Shown: piece after piece, positions 1-45,549 of the stretch | How positions within the stretch are numbered: the stretch's first letter is position 1 | How the letters are laid out: every line of letters begins with the position of its first letter | Assembly: GCF_002532075.1 (NCBI RefSeq) | Contig: NZ_LYXE01000110.1 | Coordinates: 1-64,000, forward strand | Length of the DNA stretch: 64,000 bases | DNA from: Candidatus Chloroploca asiatica | Lineage (GTDB): Bacteria; Chloroflexota; Chloroflexia; Chloroflexales; Chloroflexaceae | Direction: 5' to 3' | Notes under the pieces: generated by a model | What the model was told of the DNA's origin: nothing | Seen by the model: only the letters and a program-made list of their open reading frames with translations | Databases searched by the model: none | Translations under genes and position numbers: made by a program

Positions 1-107
1 GGCGGGTGCCCTGGCGGGTGCCCTGGCGGGTGCCCTGGCGGGTGCCCTGGCGGGTGCCCTGGCGGGTGCCCTGGCGGGGTGCATACACGGAAGATGCAAT
101 CGCCCTG
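1..107. repeat. GC-rich 12-bp tandem repeat and right end of a MITE-like element
   Basis: The window opens inside a tandem array of the 12-bp unit GGCGGGTGCCCT, about six and a half copies to about position 78. It is followed by GCATACACGGAAGATGCAATCGCCCTG. The last 15 bases (93-107, GATGCAATCGCCCTG) are the reverse complement of the left end of the element at 59796-60006, and the ACGGAAGATGCA stretch is also shared with it. I read this as the right part of a second copy of that element whose interior has expanded into the 12-bp array. The left end lies outside the window. Confidence 0.6.
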
Positions 108-2685: not shown

Positions 2686-3074
2686 CTAGTAGTCTGGGAA
2701 GTACATTTTCTGACATGCTCGCAGCCTTGTCATGCTGAGCGCAGCGAAGCATCTCTGCGGGGGCTTCGACAGGCTCAGCCTCCGTCCATTCGCAACGCCC
2801 ATCGTCCGCCGTTGGCTGAGCTTGTCGAAGCCAAGCCCTATCGCAACGCCCATCGTCCGCCGTTGGCTGAGCTTGTCGAAGCCAAGCCCTATCGCAACGC
2901 CCATCGTCCGCCGTTGGCTGAGCTTGTCGAAGCCAAGCCCTATCGCAACGCCCATCGTCCGCCGTTGGCTGAGCTTGTCGAAGCCAAGCCCTATCGCAAC
3001 GCCCATCGTCCGCCGTTGGCTGAGCTTGTCGAAGCCAAGCCCTAGAGCCGAAAACTTTTGTTACACACTACTAG
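2686..3074. mobile_element. MITE-like element, family B (TIR CTAGTAGT...TTTTC), 389 bp
   Basis: The left end CTAGTAGTCTGGGAAGTACA continues into TTTTCTG. It is an imperfect inverted repeat of the right end (GCCGAAAACTTTTGTTACAC then ACTACTAG), with 18 of 27 positions matching. The interior has a CATGCTGAGCGCAGCGAAG motif, GCTTCGACAGGCTCAGCC and the 51-bp tandem array listed separately. A second copy with better-preserved ends is at 30691-30934. No reading frame inside looks like a transposase, so it would be non-autonomous. Confidence 0.6.
2791..3045. repeat. 51-bp tandem repeat, five copies
   Basis: Five near-identical 51-bp units begin at 2791, 2842, 2893, 2944 and 2995. Each holds CGCAACGCCCATCGTCCGCC followed by GTTGGCTGAGCTTGTCGAAG. 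One unit is present, once only, in the related element at 30691-30934, so this array is a local expansion of the element's right half. The open frames across it are artefacts of a repeat length divisible by three. Confidence 0.9.
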
Positions 3075-21059: not shown

Positions 21060-21375
21060 CCAGCACCCCGCCAGGGCACCCGCCAGGGGTGCCCCTACAC
21101 CGGCCCCCGCCACCGGCCCTGTACGGGCACCCCTGGCGGCGGCCCCTACACCGCCCCCGCCCCCGGCCCTGTACGGGCACCCCTGGCGGCGGCCCTCCCC
21201 TGGCGGCGGCCACCGGCCCTGTACGGGCACCCCTGGCGGCGGCCCCTACACCGGCCCCGGCCCCCGGCCCTGTACGGGCACCCCTGGCGGCGGCCCTCCC
21301 CTGGCGGGTGCCCTCCCCTGGCGGCGGCCCTCCCCTCTGCGTGCCACCACGCCAGCGGAGCTGGCCTGGTGGCAC
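21060..21375. repeat. GC-rich tandem repeat (about 50 bp, four copies) and hairpin
   Basis: Units containing CCCTGTACGGGCACCCCTGG then CGGCGG recur with GTACGGGCAC at 21121, 21171, 21221 and 21272. GGCACCC/GGGTGCC motifs link it to the elements at 1-107 and 59796-60006. At 21341-21375 GTGCCACCACGCCAG pairs with CTGGCCTGGTGGCAC (14 of 15), a possible terminator for the regulator gene. From 21376 to 21589 I see no gene. The frames on both strands are low-complexity artefacts. Confidence 0.8.
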
Positions 21376-39563: not shown

Positions 39564-42500
39564 ATGGCTACGATGAGCCTGCAAGCCGCATATGATCAGG
39601 CCCGCAACTATCTTGAGGCCAATCAGGTCGATCAGGCGATTGGTGTGGCTCAGCAGATCCTTGACCACTTTCCTGAAAATCTTGAAGCTCACCGGGTTCT
39701 TGGTGAGGCCTATCTCGCTGGACGTCAGTTCGATCAGGCCGAGGCTGCCTTTAGCCGCGTGCTCTTTGTTGATCCCGAGAGCATTCCCGCTCACGTTGGC
39801 CTCGGGATTACGTTTGAACGCCAGGGGAAGCTTGAACACGCGATCGCTGAGTTTGAACAGGCCCTCGAGATTCGGCCCGATATGCCCGAATTGCGCGGGC
39901 AGTTGCTTCGCCTCTATACCGATCTCTGGGGGGCCGAGGGCGCAACCCTCCGCTTGAGCCGCCCCGGGCTCGCACGCCTCTATGCCAAGGGCCATATGCT
40001 CCCTCAGGCTATTCAAGAGTTCCGTGGCGTGATTGAGGAGCATCCCGATCGCTTCGATGCCCGCGTTGGCCTCGCTGAGGCTCTCTGGCGCGATGGGCAG
40101 GAAGATGCCGTGGTCGAGTTGTGTGAGGCGATCCTTGCCCAGCGTCCCGAGGTGCTCAAGGCAAATCTGCTCCTTGGTTATATCCTCCTCGCTGGCGGCG
40201 ATCCCGCCGGTGAAGCCTACTGGCAGCGCGCTCAGGCCCTCGACCCCTATGAACTGGTCGCCCATGCGCTCTTTGATCCGATGCCTGGGATCGTTGGCCC
40301 AGAACTTGTTGTGCCCGCATGGGACGAGGCTGCTTGGCTCGCTCGACGTGATCAGGCCGAAGCAATGCCCGAGACGATGCTCGGCGAAGAACCCGATGCC
40401 ATCTTCGCGCAAGCCGCTCCCCCAGTAGAGCCGGTCGAGACCGCTGAGGAGGTGCTGCCGGAACTGCCCCCATCCCCTGCTGTCAGCGATTTTGATGATG
40501 AAGATGATTTCCTCGCTAGTCTGCTGGCGATGGAGGCTGGCTTTGAAGAAGAGACCGCTTTCGCTGAAGCGAGTGGGGTGACGCCGTTCAGTTTTGATGA
40601 GCAGCCTCCTCTGGCTGAGTCTGTTGCACCTTCTGATGTTGAGCCGTCAACATCAGCCTTTGCGTTTACGGAAGATGTTGCTCCTGTAGAGCATGCCGCC
40701 CCCACCACCGAAGACGACGTCGACCTCGAGCCCTTCTCGCTCGATGACCTTGGTCTCAGCGCCGACGAAATCGCCCAACTCGAAGCCGCCGTCCCTGCCG
40801 AAGACGCCGCCCCCGCCACCGACGAGGACGTCGACCTGACCCCCTTCTCGCTCGATGACCTTGGTCTCAGCGCCGACGAAATCGCCCAACTCGAAGCCGC
40901 CGTTCCTGCCGAAGAGGTCGCACCCACCACCGAAGACGACGTCGACCTCGAGCCCTTCTCGCTCGATGACCTTGGTCTCAGCGCCGACGAAATCGCCCAA
41001 CTCGAAGCCGCCGTCCCTGCCGAAGACGCCGCCCCCGCCACCGACGAGGACGTCGACCTCACCCCCTTCTCGCTCGATGACCTTGGTCTCAGCGCCGACG
41101 AAATCGCCCAACTCGAAGCCGCCATTCCTGCCGAAGAGGTCGCACCCACCACCGACGAGGACGACGTCAACCTGACCCCCTTCTCGCTCGATGACCTCGG
41201 CTTCAGTGCCGACGAAATCGCGCAACTCGAAGCCGCCGTCCCTGCCGAAGAAGTCGCCCCCGCCACCGACGAGGACGTCGACCTCACCCCCTTCTCGCTC
41301 GATGACCTTGGTCTCAGCCCAGAAGAAATCGCGCAACTCGAAGCCGCCGTCCCTGCCGAAGAAGTCGCCCCCGCCACCGACGAGGACGTCGACCTCACCC
41401 CCTTCTCGCTCGATGACCTTGGCCTCAGCGCCGACGAAATCGCGCAACTCGAAGCCGCCGTCCCTGCCGAAGAGGTCGCCCCCGCCACCGACGACGACGT
41501 CAACCTGACCCCCTTCTCGCTCGATGACCTTGGCCTCAGTGCCGACGAAATCGCGCAACTCGAAGCCGCCGTCCCTGCCGAAGACGCCGCCCCCGCCACC
41601 GAGGACGACGTCAACCTGACCCCCTTCTCGCTCGATGACCTCGGCTTCAGCGAAGGTGACCTCGCTAACTTTGAAGCTGCCATCGCCGCGGAAGAGGCAA
41701 GCAAAGGGCAGGAAATGCGCCAGACCCAAGGTTCTCAGGAAGAGGGAACGGCAGCATTCAGTGAGATGACCGATCTTGATCTTAACTTCGATGATCTGCA
41801 GCCATTCTCGCTTGATGATCTCGACCTCAGCAACTTCGAAGAGAACCCTGAGGGACTACCATCCTTCCTACAGCCCTTCTCGTTAGACGAGGCAACGGCC
41901 ACGCCAGGCGACAAAGAGGCTCCAGAGCGTGACGAGCCAGAAATCTTCAGTTGGCAAGAACCTGCAGCCCGTGAACGGACGAGCTTTGGTCAACAAGAAG
42001 AACCAGAGCCATCAGGCGTCAGCATCTTTGGCAAATTGGCCCAGCAAGCCGCCGAGCGGCCCCCTCATGAACCGCCACCACTGGCTCCGGTTGATGATGA
42101 AGAGGCCGAAGCAGCTGGGTATTTCTCGGATGATGATGTCGCCCTGCGTGAAGAGACGTCGGGCAAGCCAGAGCGTTTCGTTTCAGGTTTTCGTTTGCCT
42201 CGTGAAGGTGAAGAACGCGCCGCTGAAGCACATGCCGAGGTCGAGCCTGCCGCATTCACCCTTTCACCCCCACCTGAGCAAGACGTGGATCTAACGCCCT
42301 TCTCGCTCGCCGATCTGGGCCTCTCACCCGAAGAGATTGCCGCCCTGGAAGCCGAAGCTGCAGAAGGGGCAGCCATGACTGCCAGTGGTGAAATGGGCTT
42401 GCTCGGGGAGGACGTGGATCTAACGCCCTTCTCACTCGCCGATCTGGGCCTCTCACCCGAAGAGATTGCCGCGCTTGAGGGCGTTGAACTGCCTGAAGCG

Positions 42501-44498
42501 ACGCTCGGGGAGGACGTGGATCTAACGCCCTTCTCGCTCGCCGATCTGGGCCTCTCACCCGAAGAGATTGCCGCGCTCGAAGCAGCAAATCAGGAACAGT
42601 TCAATCTGCCAGTCACTGGTGAGACGATCGTGCCCGGGTGGTCACGCGGTGAAGAACCAGAATTAATCCCGTTTAGCCCCCAGGTTGAACCGCCGATAGC
42701 ACCAGCAGAGGCAACGCCAGACATGCTTGAGACAGATCAAGCAGCAGCTGAACTACCCACCGAGAGCGACACTGATTTCACCAACATATTTGAAAGCGAC
42801 GTCCAACCCTTCTCATTTGATGAATTTGACCTTGAGACAGGTGAGCCACGCACGCTCGAGCACGACGACGAAGGCATCAGTGGCGATGTACAGCCCTTCT
42901 CGCTGGATGATCTTGATCTCGGTGATCTTGATGCGTTTGCCCCCGATGCCGAAGAACGGAAACTGGGCGTAACCAGCGAAGAACTGGCTGGTCTTGACCT
43001 TGGCAACCTCGAGTCAATGACAGGCGAAAGACCGTCGCTCAAGATCGCCGACGATCCAGAGGCTGCCCTGGGGCATCTGACAACCCTGGGTCAGCAGCAA
43101 GGCTATGTGGATCTGACCGATATTATCAGCATGGTCTCTGATCCTGAAGCCGAAGCCGACCAGATCGAACAGATGGCGTGGTCACTCCATCATGCTGGCA
43201 TCCAGATTCGTGATGGCGATGAGGTCATTGACCTCGAAGGTGAAGCCGAAAGCGAAGCACTTGAAGCCATCGGTGATGTCTTTGACGCCGAAGCTGGGCT
43301 AGCCGCAAGCCAACCCTCTTCCACCGAGCTTGAACCCTTCTCGCTCAACGAACTCGGCTTGAGCGATGACGAACTTGCCGCCCTCGGGCTCGATAGTCTC
43401 GGTCAACCAGAAGCCGCTGCACCTGGCGCACCAGCGGGCGAAGAGGCCGATCTGACCCCCTTCTCACTCGCTGACCTGGGCCTCACCCCCGATGAGATCG
43501 CACTCTTCGAGGCCGATATCATTGAGGAAACCGAGGAACCAGGGTCGGTTATGGCACCAACAGGCGAGCCTGAAGCCGAACTGGAACCCTTCTCGCTCAG
43601 CGATCTTGGCCTCACCCCCGATGAGATCGCTATGCTCGAAGCGAGTGTCGAGGAGGCTAGCCTCCTGGGCGTATCTAGTGATGAGGAGGCAGTAGCCCCG
43701 ACGGTTGACGCGACAGGCGAAGACGGGCCAGGCGCAACCGAGGCTGTTGACGACGACGAATTCGACTTCGATCTGGCCGAAGCAACCCCAGTTGAAAGAG
43801 TCACCGCACGCACCGAGCCGCGGGTTGAAGAGCCAGTGACCGAGGCAGATCCAGCTGATACTGACTTTGAGCCCGAGCCACTCGATAACCTGGATGATAT
43901 CTGGGACGCGTCGACAGAGGAAGCCGAACTTCTCACACCGGCGCGCGTCATCTTGCCACCAATGAGCGAACGCTTTGCCGAACCACCCCCGCCGCCACGT
44001 CCGGCAAGTATCACGCCTACCGTGCCACCTGCATCGCCTCAACTGAGTCGTGATGAAGAGCGGTATGCCCGACGAGAAGGAGCGCCACGGCGCTACCGTG
44101 AGGAAGAGCGGCAACCTCGGCGCTTCCGGCAAGCCGAAGCAACGGCAGCCCTGGCTACCACCGCCGAATTTGCTGGCTTTGTGCCAACTGGTGATCCCTT
44201 GCTCGATGATTATCTTGGACAACTCGACGAAGAACCAGACAACTACGGCCTGGCAATGGCAATCGGTCATCTCTGCGCACAAACGAACCGGCCAGAAATT
44301 ATGACCCGGGCCTTCAAGCGCGTTGTTCGCGCCGGGCAAGGCCTTGAACAGATGGTATCCGAACTCGAAACCTTGATGGGAAGCATCGAAGAACCGGCGA
44401 TCAAACAACCATTGACCCGCTTGCTAGGCGATGCCTATTCCAAACAAGGTCGGTATACCGACGCCATGCAAGCGTATGGCGCCACGTTCACCCAATGA
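39564..44498 (+). CDS. TPR scaffold protein with about 19 PFSLxDLGL motifs
   Basis: The protein has 1644 residues, very acidic. AGGAGG precedes the ATG at 39564; an upstream ATG at 39492 lacks one. Residues 1-215 are tandem TPRs (ANQVDQAIGVAQQILDHFPE, GRQFDQAEAAFSRVLFVDPE). From about 384 a 37-residue unit repeats nine times (DVDLTPFSLDDLGLSADEIA with an acidic/alanine linker). A shorter, more varied set of PFSL motifs continues to about 1370. The C-terminus (about 1540-1644) is again TPR-like (GDPLLDDYLGQLDEEPDNYG, LGDAYSKQGRYTDAMQAYGA). The motif looks like a short helix-forming peptide ligand in a flexible chain, so I infer a multivalent docking scaffold. The adjacent roadblock protein (44574-44921) is the obvious candidate partner. 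Confidence 0.85.
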   Translation: MATMSLQAAYDQARNYLEANQVDQAIGVAQQILDHFPENLEAHRVLGEAYLAGRQFDQAEAAFSRVLFVDPESIPAHVGLGITFERQGKLEHAIAEFEQALEIRPDMPELRGQLLRLYTDLWGAEGATLRLSRPGLARLYAKGHMLPQAIQEFRGVIEEHPDRFDARVGLAEALWRDGQEDAVVELCEAILAQRPEVLKANLLLGYILLAGGDPAGEAYWQRAQALDPYELVAHALFDPMPGIVGPELVVPAWDEAAWLARRDQAEAMPETMLGEEPDAIFAQAAPPVEPVETAEEVLPELPPSPAVSDFDDEDDFLASLLAMEAGFEEETAFAEASGVTPFSFDEQPPLAESVAPSDVEPSTSAFAFTEDVAPVEHAAPTTEDDVDLEPFSLDDLGLSADEIAQLEAAVPAEDAAPATDEDVDLTPFSLDDLGLSADEIAQLEAAVPAEEVAPTTEDDVDLEPFSLDDLGLSADEIAQLEAAVPAEDAAPATDEDVDLTPFSLDDLGLSADEIAQLEAAIPAEEVAPTTDEDDVNLTPFSLDDLGFSADEIAQLEAAVPAEEVAPATDEDVDLTPFSLDDLGLSPEEIAQLEAAVPAEEVAPATDEDVDLTPFSLDDLGLSADEIAQLEAAVPAEEVAPATDDDVNLTPFSLDDLGLSADEIAQLEAAVPAEDAAPATEDDVNLTPFSLDDLGFSEGDLANFEAAIAAEEASKGQEMRQTQGSQEEGTAAFSEMTDLDLNFDDLQPFSLDDLDLSNFEENPEGLPSFLQPFSLDEATATPGDKEAPERDEPEIFSWQEPAARERTSFGQQEEPEPSGVSIFGKLAQQAAERPPHEPPPLAPVDDEEAEAAGYFSDDDVALREETSGKPERFVSGFRLPREGEERAAEAHAEVEPAAFTLSPPPEQDVDLTPFSLADLGLSPEEIAALEAEAAEGAAMTASGEMGLLGEDVDLTPFSLADLGLSPEEIAALEGVELPEATLGEDVDLTPFSLADLGLSPEEIAALEAANQEQFNLPVTGETIVPGWSRGEEPELIPFSPQVEPPIAPAEATPDMLETDQAAAELPTESDTDFTNIFESDVQPFSFDEFDLETGEPRTLEHDDEGISGDVQPFSLDDLDLGDLDAFAPDAEERKLGVTSEELAGLDLGNLESMTGERPSLKIADDPEAALGHLTTLGQQQGYVDLTDIISMVSDPEAEADQIEQMAWSLHHAGIQIRDGDEVIDLEGEAESEALEAIGDVFDAEAGLAASQPSSTELEPFSLNELGLSDDELAALGLDSLGQPEAAAPGAPAGEEADLTPFSLADLGLTPDEIALFEADIIEETEEPGSVMAPTGEPEAELEPFSLSDLGLTPDEIAMLEASVEEASLLGVSSDEEAVAPTVDATGEDGPGATEAVDDDEFDFDLAEATPVERVTARTEPRVEEPVTEADPADTDFEPEPLDNLDDIWDASTEEAELLTPARVILPPMSERFAEPPPPPRPASITPTVPPASPQLSRDEERYARREGAPRRYREEERQPRRFRQAEATAALATTAEFAGFVPTGDPLLDDYLGQLDEEPDNYGLAMAIGHLCAQTNRPEIMTRAFKRVVRAGQGLEQMVSELETLMGSIEEPAIKQPLTRLLGDAYSKQGRYTDAMQAYGATFTQ
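40716..41735 (+). repeat. Nine tandem 111-bp coding repeats
   Basis: The CCCTTCTCGCTCGATGACC core begins at 40731, 40842, 40953, 41064, 41178, 41289, 41400, 41511 and 41622: 111-bp spacing with one 114-bp unit (an extra aspartate codon). Units are nearly identical at DNA level, including synonymous sites, indicating recent expansion. The long antisense frames opposite are by-products. Confidence 0.95.
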
Positions 44499-44573
44499 AC
44501 AGGATCCACTATCAGGCCGCCTGTCTAGAGCACAGACATGTTTGGTCAACATAAGTTTACGAGAGGTCAAGGT

Positions 44574-44921
44574 ATGCGCCGCATCGTTGAAGACCTGCTA
44601 CGCGTTGAAGGGGTCATTGGAAGCCTCCTGGTTGGTAAAGATGGGCTTGTCGTCTCGAGCACCCTGCTCGACGAAGAGGATGCCGAAATTCTTGGTGCCA
44701 TGTCGGCCGCCGTCTTTGGTGAGATTGACAAAGCAACGAAACGCATTGGCATCGGCACGCTGGTCGACTCGATCATTGACGCCAAAGATGGCTCGATACT
44801 GCTCCTTGAAGCCAAGGAATTGATCCTGGTCGTCATTACCCAGCGTACCGTCAATCTCGGCCTCGTGAAAATGGAGATGCGCCGGGCAGCCAAGCGCATC
44901 AGCGAAGCGGTGCCGATCTAA
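44574..44921 (+). CDS. Roadblock/LC7 domain protein (MglB-like)
   Basis: The protein has 115 residues. The ATG at 44574 has AGAGGT upstream and gives the usual family start MRRIVEDLLRVEGVIGSLLV; an ATG 36 bases earlier has no Shine-Dalgarno. The remainder, KDGLVVSSTLLDEEDAEIL, TLVDSIIDAKDGSILLLEAK and LVVITQRTVNLGLVKMEMRR, covers the full alpha/beta roadblock fold. Family members act as dimeric regulators of small Ras-like GTPases such as MglA. No GTPase gene is in this window. It follows the scaffold gene by 75 bp on the same strand and ends in a perfect hairpin, so the two are probably co-transcribed. Confidence 0.92.
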   Translation: MRRIVEDLLRVEGVIGSLLVGKDGLVVSSTLLDEEDAEILGAMSAAVFGEIDKATKRIGIGTLVDSIIDAKDGSILLLEAKELILVVITQRTVNLGLVKMEMRRAAKRISEAVPI

Positions 44922-45093: not shown

Positions 45094-45549
45094 ATGGAAC
45101 GTGCATTGATTATTCTCAAACCTGATGCAGTCCAACGTGGGTTGATCGGGCCAATCCTTTCACGCCTCGAGCAACGTGGGCTGCGCTTTCAGGGGCTCAA
45201 GCTGATTCAGATGACGAAAGATATGGCTTGCCAGCACTATGCCGAGCACGAAGGCAAAAGCTTTTTTAGCGGCCTCATCACCTATATCACCTCAGCACCA
45301 GTCCTGGTGCTCGTCGTCACAGGCAAAGCCGGTACCGTCGAACTGGTGCGGGCCATGGTTGGCGCAACCAATCCGGCCAAAGCGGCACCAGGCACCATCC
45401 GCGGTGATTTTGGCCTCGAAATCGGGCGTAACCTTATCCACGCCTCTGACTCGCCCGAAAACGGTGAGCGCGAAACGGAGATCTTCTTCAAATCTGAAGA
45501 ACTCATAGGTCAATGGGAGCGCGCCATCCATATCTGGATTCACGAATAA
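45094..45549 (+). CDS. ndk: Nucleoside diphosphate kinase
   Basis: The protein has 151 residues. GAGGA precedes the ATG. All hallmarks are present: ERALIILKPDAVQRGLIGPI, the substrate loop, GATNPAKAAPGTIRGDFG and the active-site histidine in NLIHASDSPENGEREIxF form (here NLIHASDSPENGERETEIFF). It exchanges the terminal phosphate between nucleoside triphosphates and diphosphates through a phospho-histidine. It is monocistronic, with a hairpin terminator after it. Confidence 0.97.
   Translation: MERALIILKPDAVQRGLIGPILSRLEQRGLRFQGLKLIQMTKDMACQHYAEHEGKSFFSGLITYITSAPVLVLVVTGKAGTVELVRAMVGATNPAKAAPGTIRGDFGLEIGRNLIHASDSPENGERETEIFFKSEELIGQWERAIHIWIHE

Follow-up and report, generated by a model that had tools for sequence, protein, structure and literature searches.

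A tetratricopeptide scaffold with a repeated PFSL motif beside a roadblock gene in Chloroflexales: a candidate hub of a GTPase pathway

We analyzed a stretch of 64,000 nucleotides of Candidatus Chloroploca asiatica (contig NZ_LYXE01000110.1), hereafter the window. Three genes follow each other on one strand of this window: a long gene encoding a protein with tetratricopeptide repeats (TPR), which we call the scaffold, a gene encoding a roadblock/LC7 protein and a gene encoding a nucleoside diphosphate kinase (NDK). The features of the locus are the following:

39564..44498, + strand: scaffold, a single ORF of 1644 aa arranged as TPR / acidic disordered / TPR, with a pI of ~4.05
39564..40274, + strand: N-terminal TPR domain, residues 1-237 (Pfam TPR, alignment, pLDDT ~95-98)
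40494..40550, + strand: conserved single helix around DDFLASLLAMEAGF, residues 311-329 (consensus DDFLASLLA in the alignment; pLDDT ~55-63)
40725..41678, + strand: tandem array of nine units LxPFSLDDLGxSxxEIAxLE (TRF and unit listing)
41796..43643, + strand: nine more scattered PFS(L/F) units, residues 745-1360 (unit listing)
43059..43250, + strand: folded domain similar to sigma-70 region 1.1, residues 1166-1229 (Pfam Sigma70_r1_1; pLDDT 91-97)
44196..44480, + strand: C-terminal TPR-like helical repeats, residues 1545-1639, approximately (model pLDDT 85-90; C-terminus conserved in relatives)
44574..44921, + strand: roadblock/LC7 protein (Pfam Robl_LC7, PF03259; conserved start MRRIVEDL at 44574)
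45094..45549, + strand: NDK, third gene of the cassette (profile match, conserved linkage)

The start of the scaffold at the ATG in position 39564 is backed by its N-terminus MATxSLQ, which is conserved among relatives. The open frame of the roadblock gene allows a start at 44538, and the alignment of relatives favours 44574. The NDK gene is the only one in the genome. A previous description of this DNA, made from its letters alone (the sequence-only reading), placed the bounds of the locus at 39564-44921: these include the scaffold and roadblock genes but leave out the NDK gene, which is part of the conserved cassette.

The N-terminal TPR domain is the part of the scaffold that is conserved across the phylum, and its profile matches 189 of 400 genomes of the phylum. 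The sequence-only reading had placed TPRs at both ends of the protein, and this was confirmed by Pfam and pLDDT for the N-terminus and by modelled helical repeats for the C-terminus. The middle of the protein (1258 residues) is composed of 26% D/E and 3% K/R, with a net charge of -295. The domain resembling sigma-70 region 1.1 scores above the cut-off of the Sigma70_r1_1 profile (25.5 bits vs 22.5), and its top matches among PDB sequences are all RpoD/SigA (best E of 0.0015). This domain is kept inside the scaffold in most Chloroflexaceae and in Roseiflexus-type relatives. No receiver domain of the RomR type was found among the Pfam matches listed for the scaffold (E of 0.1; mostly TPR families), and no N-terminal membrane anchor was seen on the protein, whose chain begins directly with the TPR. 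Pfam matches to DUF1127, PHM7_ext, Terminase_6, chi-conotoxin and TAD2 over the repeats were discarded as repeat-inflated, as no stretch passes alone.

The strict motif PFS[LF]xx[LF][GD][LF] was identified 18 times in the scaffold, between residues 390 and 1342, along with a few degenerate copies, so that the count of about 19 motifs given by the sequence-only reading was correct. Composition shuffles of the scaffold (n = 2000) contained on average 0.0005 strict motifs, with a maximum of one. Scanning the whole genome for the pattern at the codon level yielded 18 matches in the scaffold gene and one outside, as against one for the reversed control, and the frame of this lone match is without the remainder of the motif. 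The other Chloroflexales genomes scanned present 0-2 copies outside the locus per genome, which is the same as the control. These shuffles and whole-genome scans rule out a chance origin of the motifs. The motif PFSLxDLGL described earlier is indeed present, but the repeated unit extends over ~20 residues rather than nine, through LSxxEIAxL. The consensus of 411 Chloroflexales units is LxPFSLx(D/E)LGLSx(E/D)EIAxL; the P/E and F positions were required by the search and are conserved by definition, and conservation reaches 0.96 for S, 0.88 and 0.90 for L and 0.82 for G. The unit is predicted by AlphaFold to form two short helices joined by a turn (pLDDT ~70-89), and the linkers present much lower values (38-46). 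Inside the arrays, the units are mostly spaced by 31-51 residues, and the scaffolds of Chloroflexales carry 5 to 30 copies.

The central units form a tandem array with a period of 111 bp (TRF; 8.6 copies, 91% matches), which bears out the proposal that these nine units are duplications at the DNA level. Units of the same gene present a mean best DNA identity of 0.77-0.94, compared with 0.67-0.77 for units of sister species (within Chloroflexus), indicating repeated local expansion or homogenisation. The PFSL units are homogenised at the DNA level, and selection on their copy number is plausible; among Chloroploca species, the repeat number is to be read with the limit that one assembly breaks in the array and another may collapse there. 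These 111-bp repeats, and the much higher likeness of units within a gene than between sister species, would also fit an acidic spacer that is prone to slippage and binds no particular ligand, in which case the likeness of the units would reflect recent duplication only. We consider this explanation quite improbable. Conservation of the motif extends across families with independently expanded arrays. The amino-acid changes of the nine-unit array are concentrated in the linker, where 208 of 247 codon differences change the amino acid, and they occur in the motif at half that frequency (90 of 182). Since it is confined to the scaffold in the genomes scanned, re-expanded lineage by lineage and predicted to be helical amid disorder, the PFSL unit fits well the multivalent module suggested initially.

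The neighbouring gene was also recognized correctly as encoding a roadblock protein: it matches PF03259 with 61.7 bits (cut-off of 23; E = 5.7e-17), which makes it a member of the Roadblock/LC7 superfamily. Searching for similar folds gave a list taken up by roadblock proteins, with Asgard roadblocks and MglB at Z of ~18-21 (for 9jue, Z of 21.0 over 119 residues, rmsd of 1.3). The model of the roadblock was compared to MglB folds (Z of 17.6-19.3) and to the roadblocks of Ragulator (Z of 16-18). The C-terminus of the scaffold and the roadblock were modelled together in a single read-through chain, in monomeric form. The confidence of the PFSL unit was much alike in models beside the N-terminal TPR domain and beside the roadblock, and therefore indicates no particular partner.

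We further analyzed the distribution of the cassette. All 41 order-level relatives possess the scaffold, and the roadblock gene adjoins it in 37 of the 40 readable order-level loci. Proteins with the motif are therefore not commonly found without a roadblock neighbour, and the pairing of the two genes is well supported. From the roadblock side, scaffold sequence is adjacent in 72 of 73 Chloroflexota loci—the exception, L178, begins at a contig end—and NDK is nearby in 70 of 73. The genera bearing the cassette include Chloroflexus, Roseiflexus, Oscillochloris, Viridilinea and Chloroploca, and, among named genomes, the window is closest to Candidatus Chloroploca, whose roadblock is 99% identical. 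Many of the genomes compared are short-read or metagenome assemblies. The scaffold-roadblock-NDK cassette is also found without PFSL in Ktedonobacter, Dictyobacter and Thermogemmatispora (Ktedonobacteria) and in other Chloroflexota. The scaffold of Ktedonosporobacter (L199:4219-7977) presents ~12 EEPDWMKQ(I/L/M) motifs in place of PFSL, and ~21 PDWL-type motifs were found in the scaffold of locus L244 (genome G255). PDWL repeats occur in family f13 and others, which are probably Anaerolineae. One genome (G009) possesses a roadblock copy, 49% identical, a few kb from the scaffold. A 1426-aa ATPase-TPR protein is encoded immediately upstream of the scaffold in this genome (L253:9732-14009), and an MglA-like gene lies ~12 kb off.

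The sequence-only reading stated that no MglA-type GTPase was present. This is true for the window, where no mglA gene lies beside the roadblock, but the genome encodes MglA elsewhere, beside its own MglB-like protein. An MglA-like GTPase gene is located on another contig (C40:65108-65698), with two roadblock genes before it and a DUF4388 gene after it. This gene was not among the PF00025 matches listed genome-wide; it was revealed through the neighbourhood of another roadblock, which overturned the absence of MglA from the genome. The contig of this MglA cluster (locus L224, G000:C40:60000-68000) also presents two T2SSE/Tad-type ATPase matches at 47.4-50.6 kb. Considering the match of the roadblock of the window to MglB folds and its co-occurrence with MglA (see below), this protein could be a true GAP of the MglB type that acts on the distant MglA, with the scaffold acting as a tether only. 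This appears very improbable: the roadblock scores 19.3 bits in the curated MglB model NF052242, below the cut-off of 200, although this model takes its name from a single lineage and the better MglB candidate of the genome itself reaches only 68.4 bits, and that better candidate sits directly beside MglA.

Across 400 genomes of the phylum, 78 carry this roadblock, and 76 of these also encode MglA; among the 322 roadblock-negative genomes, 25 do (Fisher test, phylogeny uncorrected), with roadblock absence defined at a chosen threshold below which diverged copies may fall. At the genus level, MglA was found in 34 of 36 roadblock-positive and 18 of 189 roadblock-negative genera. Several of the 25 roadblock-negative genomes with MglA represent threshold effects; the sampled MglA-positive members of families f5 and f17 harbor a diverged roadblock between the scaffold and NDK, below the first threshold. 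In another genome of this category (G384), the scaffold runs off the contig. In 13 scaffold loci from MglA-negative genomes (12 that were read and that of G027), no adjacent roadblock is present. This co-occurrence backs the link to GTPase regulation that had been proposed, although the proposal was wrong in assuming that an MglA-type GTPase was lacking.

The genus g21 (G027 and G393) is missing MglA, the roadblock, PFSL and the PilB/PilT/TadA-type ATPases altogether, and these ATPases are present in the other Chloroflexales tested. Since the g21 genome is reduced, these losses may be unspecific. The roadblock was lost in G027 and in G028, and NDK directly follows the scaffold in both. G028 nevertheless kept MglA and six PFS(L/F) units, which indicates that the motif can persist without the roadblock. 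Taken together with the PFSL-less pairs outside Chloroflexales, this makes the binding of PFSL to the roadblock putative. Alternatively, PFSL might dock another partner (MglA-GTP, MglB, the pilus machinery or the TPRs of the scaffold, in cis or in trans), and the roadblock would bind elsewhere, for instance at the C-terminal region. We regard this alternative as a serious possibility, if a somewhat unlikely one. Among the genomes examined, G028 and g21—which lost both MglA and PFSL—suggest that the presence of PFSL follows MglA no less closely than it follows the roadblock, and G028 is the main fact favouring another partner. The scaffold-roadblock pairs without PFSL outside Chloroflexales further suggest that the roadblock may be contacted by the conserved TPR regions, and TPR proteins are known to partner MglA (PMC3983030, PMC11580455). 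However, the loss of the roadblock in G028 could be recent, and it is precisely in the PFSL-bearing genomes that the roadblock is more conserved. Over 23 complete Chloroflexales loci, the mean identity is 89% for the roadblock, 73% for NDK and 62% for the N-terminal TPR domain (respectively, 65%, 62% and 62% in 24 Ktedonobacteria loci). The divergence of the roadblock relative to NDK is 0.38 in PFSL-bearing Chloroflexales and 0.87 in Ktedonobacteria without PFSL. Judging from these sequences, such constraint is what would be expected for the receptor of many near-identical ligands, and other causes are possible.

Anaerolineae-like and other families have the scaffold but neither the roadblock nor MglA, so that the core role of the scaffold does not depend on the GTPase link; a core function apart from MglA is perhaps linked to NDK. 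Indeed, the scaffold-NDK linkage persists in several lineages without roadblock or MglA, including Anaerolineae-like genomes. The cassette might serve nucleotide supply or some other MglA-independent process: the scaffold would organise NDK and perhaps, given its sigma-1.1-like domain, the transcription machinery, and the roadblock would be accessory. The persistence of this linkage, the single-copy status of NDK and the presence of the sigma-1.1-like domain in the scaffold would all be in line with such a role. We nonetheless find it improbable, as the proximity of a housekeeping gene may reflect nothing more than gene order and as the co-occurrence of roadblock and MglA and the PFSL array would be left unexplained.

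With its many-copy motif, its roadblock neighbour and the co-occurrence with MglA, the scaffold looks like a candidate hub of a bacterial GTPase pathway. We tentatively favour, somewhat short of considering it probable, that scaffold and roadblock form one complex in which the PFSL array docks roadblock dimers and acts with MglA-MglB, plausibly in pilus-based motility. The scaffold would be a cytoplasmic hub that recruits other proteins through its two terminal TPR domains and presents, along its acidic disordered middle, 5-30 copies of the 20-residue two-helix motif. These units would dock roadblock dimers and concentrate many of them per chain, and the array, together with the MglA-MglB system encoded elsewhere, would position or tune an MglA-type switch. 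The output would plausibly be pilus-based surface motility in Chloroflexales, whose members glide and bear pili anchored near the septa, and for which Tad genes have been reported (PMC7332563). Thermogemmatispora (G101) possesses the cassette and MglA with no strong pilus-ATPase match, so that Ktedonobacteria weaken a strict link to pili. Overall, the pairing, the multivalency and the tie to a GTPase advanced by the sequence-only reading are supported, but the absence of MglA is not. It seems to us unlikely that the locus encodes a Ragulator-like hub of Chloroflexota in which up to ~30 near-identical docking sites on one disordered chain cluster roadblock dimers and control MglA, fed by NDK, with the number of motifs as an evolvable gain setting.

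By analogy, the cassette is perhaps best read as functionally similar to RomR-MglC-MglB or to Ragulator, as a member of neither. The roadblock also presents a fold match to light chain roadblock, whose homodimer is bound by a linear segment of the dynein intermediate chain (PDB 3l9k, 3l7h); this segment has one binding site and an unrelated sequence, in contrast to the array found here. In Myxococcus, the acidic C-terminus of RomR binds the roadblock MglC, which in turn binds MglB (PMC10329633). Both systems combine a roadblock without a neighbouring GTPase, a larger acidic helical protein (whose binding is here predicted), MglA-MglB encoded in the genome and a link to motility. Unlike RomR, the scaffold presents TPR ends, an order-specific multi-copy motif and no RomR receiver domain, NDK is included in the cassette, and the system is known from genes alone. 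The TPR proteins SgmX of Myxococcus (PMC11580455) and Bd2492 of Bdellovibrio (PMC3983030) are bound to MglA and act in polar pilus or invasion functions. The scaffold is likewise a TPR protein tied—here by co-occurrence—to an MglA-type GTPase, but its TPRs lie on either side of ~1300 disordered residues that contain a repeated motif, its gene has a roadblock gene next to it and the scaffold also occurs without MglA. In Ragulator, LAMTOR1/p18 wraps two roadblock heterodimers and scaffolds small GTPases (PMC5680233). The likeness lies in the pairing of a largely extended protein with a roadblock and in the fold match given above. Ragulator is, however, eukaryotic, heterodimeric and membrane-anchored, with one wrapping chain, whereas the present cassette has a single roadblock gene and its scaffold displays as many as 30 near-identical motifs. 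Finally, the conservons of Streptomyces (CvnA-D) include a roadblock gene in a multi-gene cassette (PMC4316618). The cassette described here is conserved in the same manner, but with no histidine kinase and no adjacent GTPase.

If the favoured explanation is true, an array of a single motif docking roadblock dimers would constitute a new scaffold architecture for small GTPases, and would also be relevant to how roadblock-scaffold complexes such as Ragulator arose. We found no description of the scaffold-roadblock pair in the literature searched, which excluded most subscription journals. What is known of MglA pathways comes chiefly from Myxococcus and a few of its relatives. For the control of gliding in filamentous Chloroflexales, the cassette, which is conserved over the phylum, constitutes a concrete candidate, and its natural losses serve as experiments.

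Other repeats were observed in the window. A 51-bp repeat with GGCTGAGCTTGTCGAAGCC is found in five perfect copies at 2790-3044, and GC-rich tandem repeats with a period of ~50 bp are located at 21091-21336. The edge of the window (1-78) consists of 6.5 copies of the perfect 12-bp repeat GGCGGGTGCCCT.
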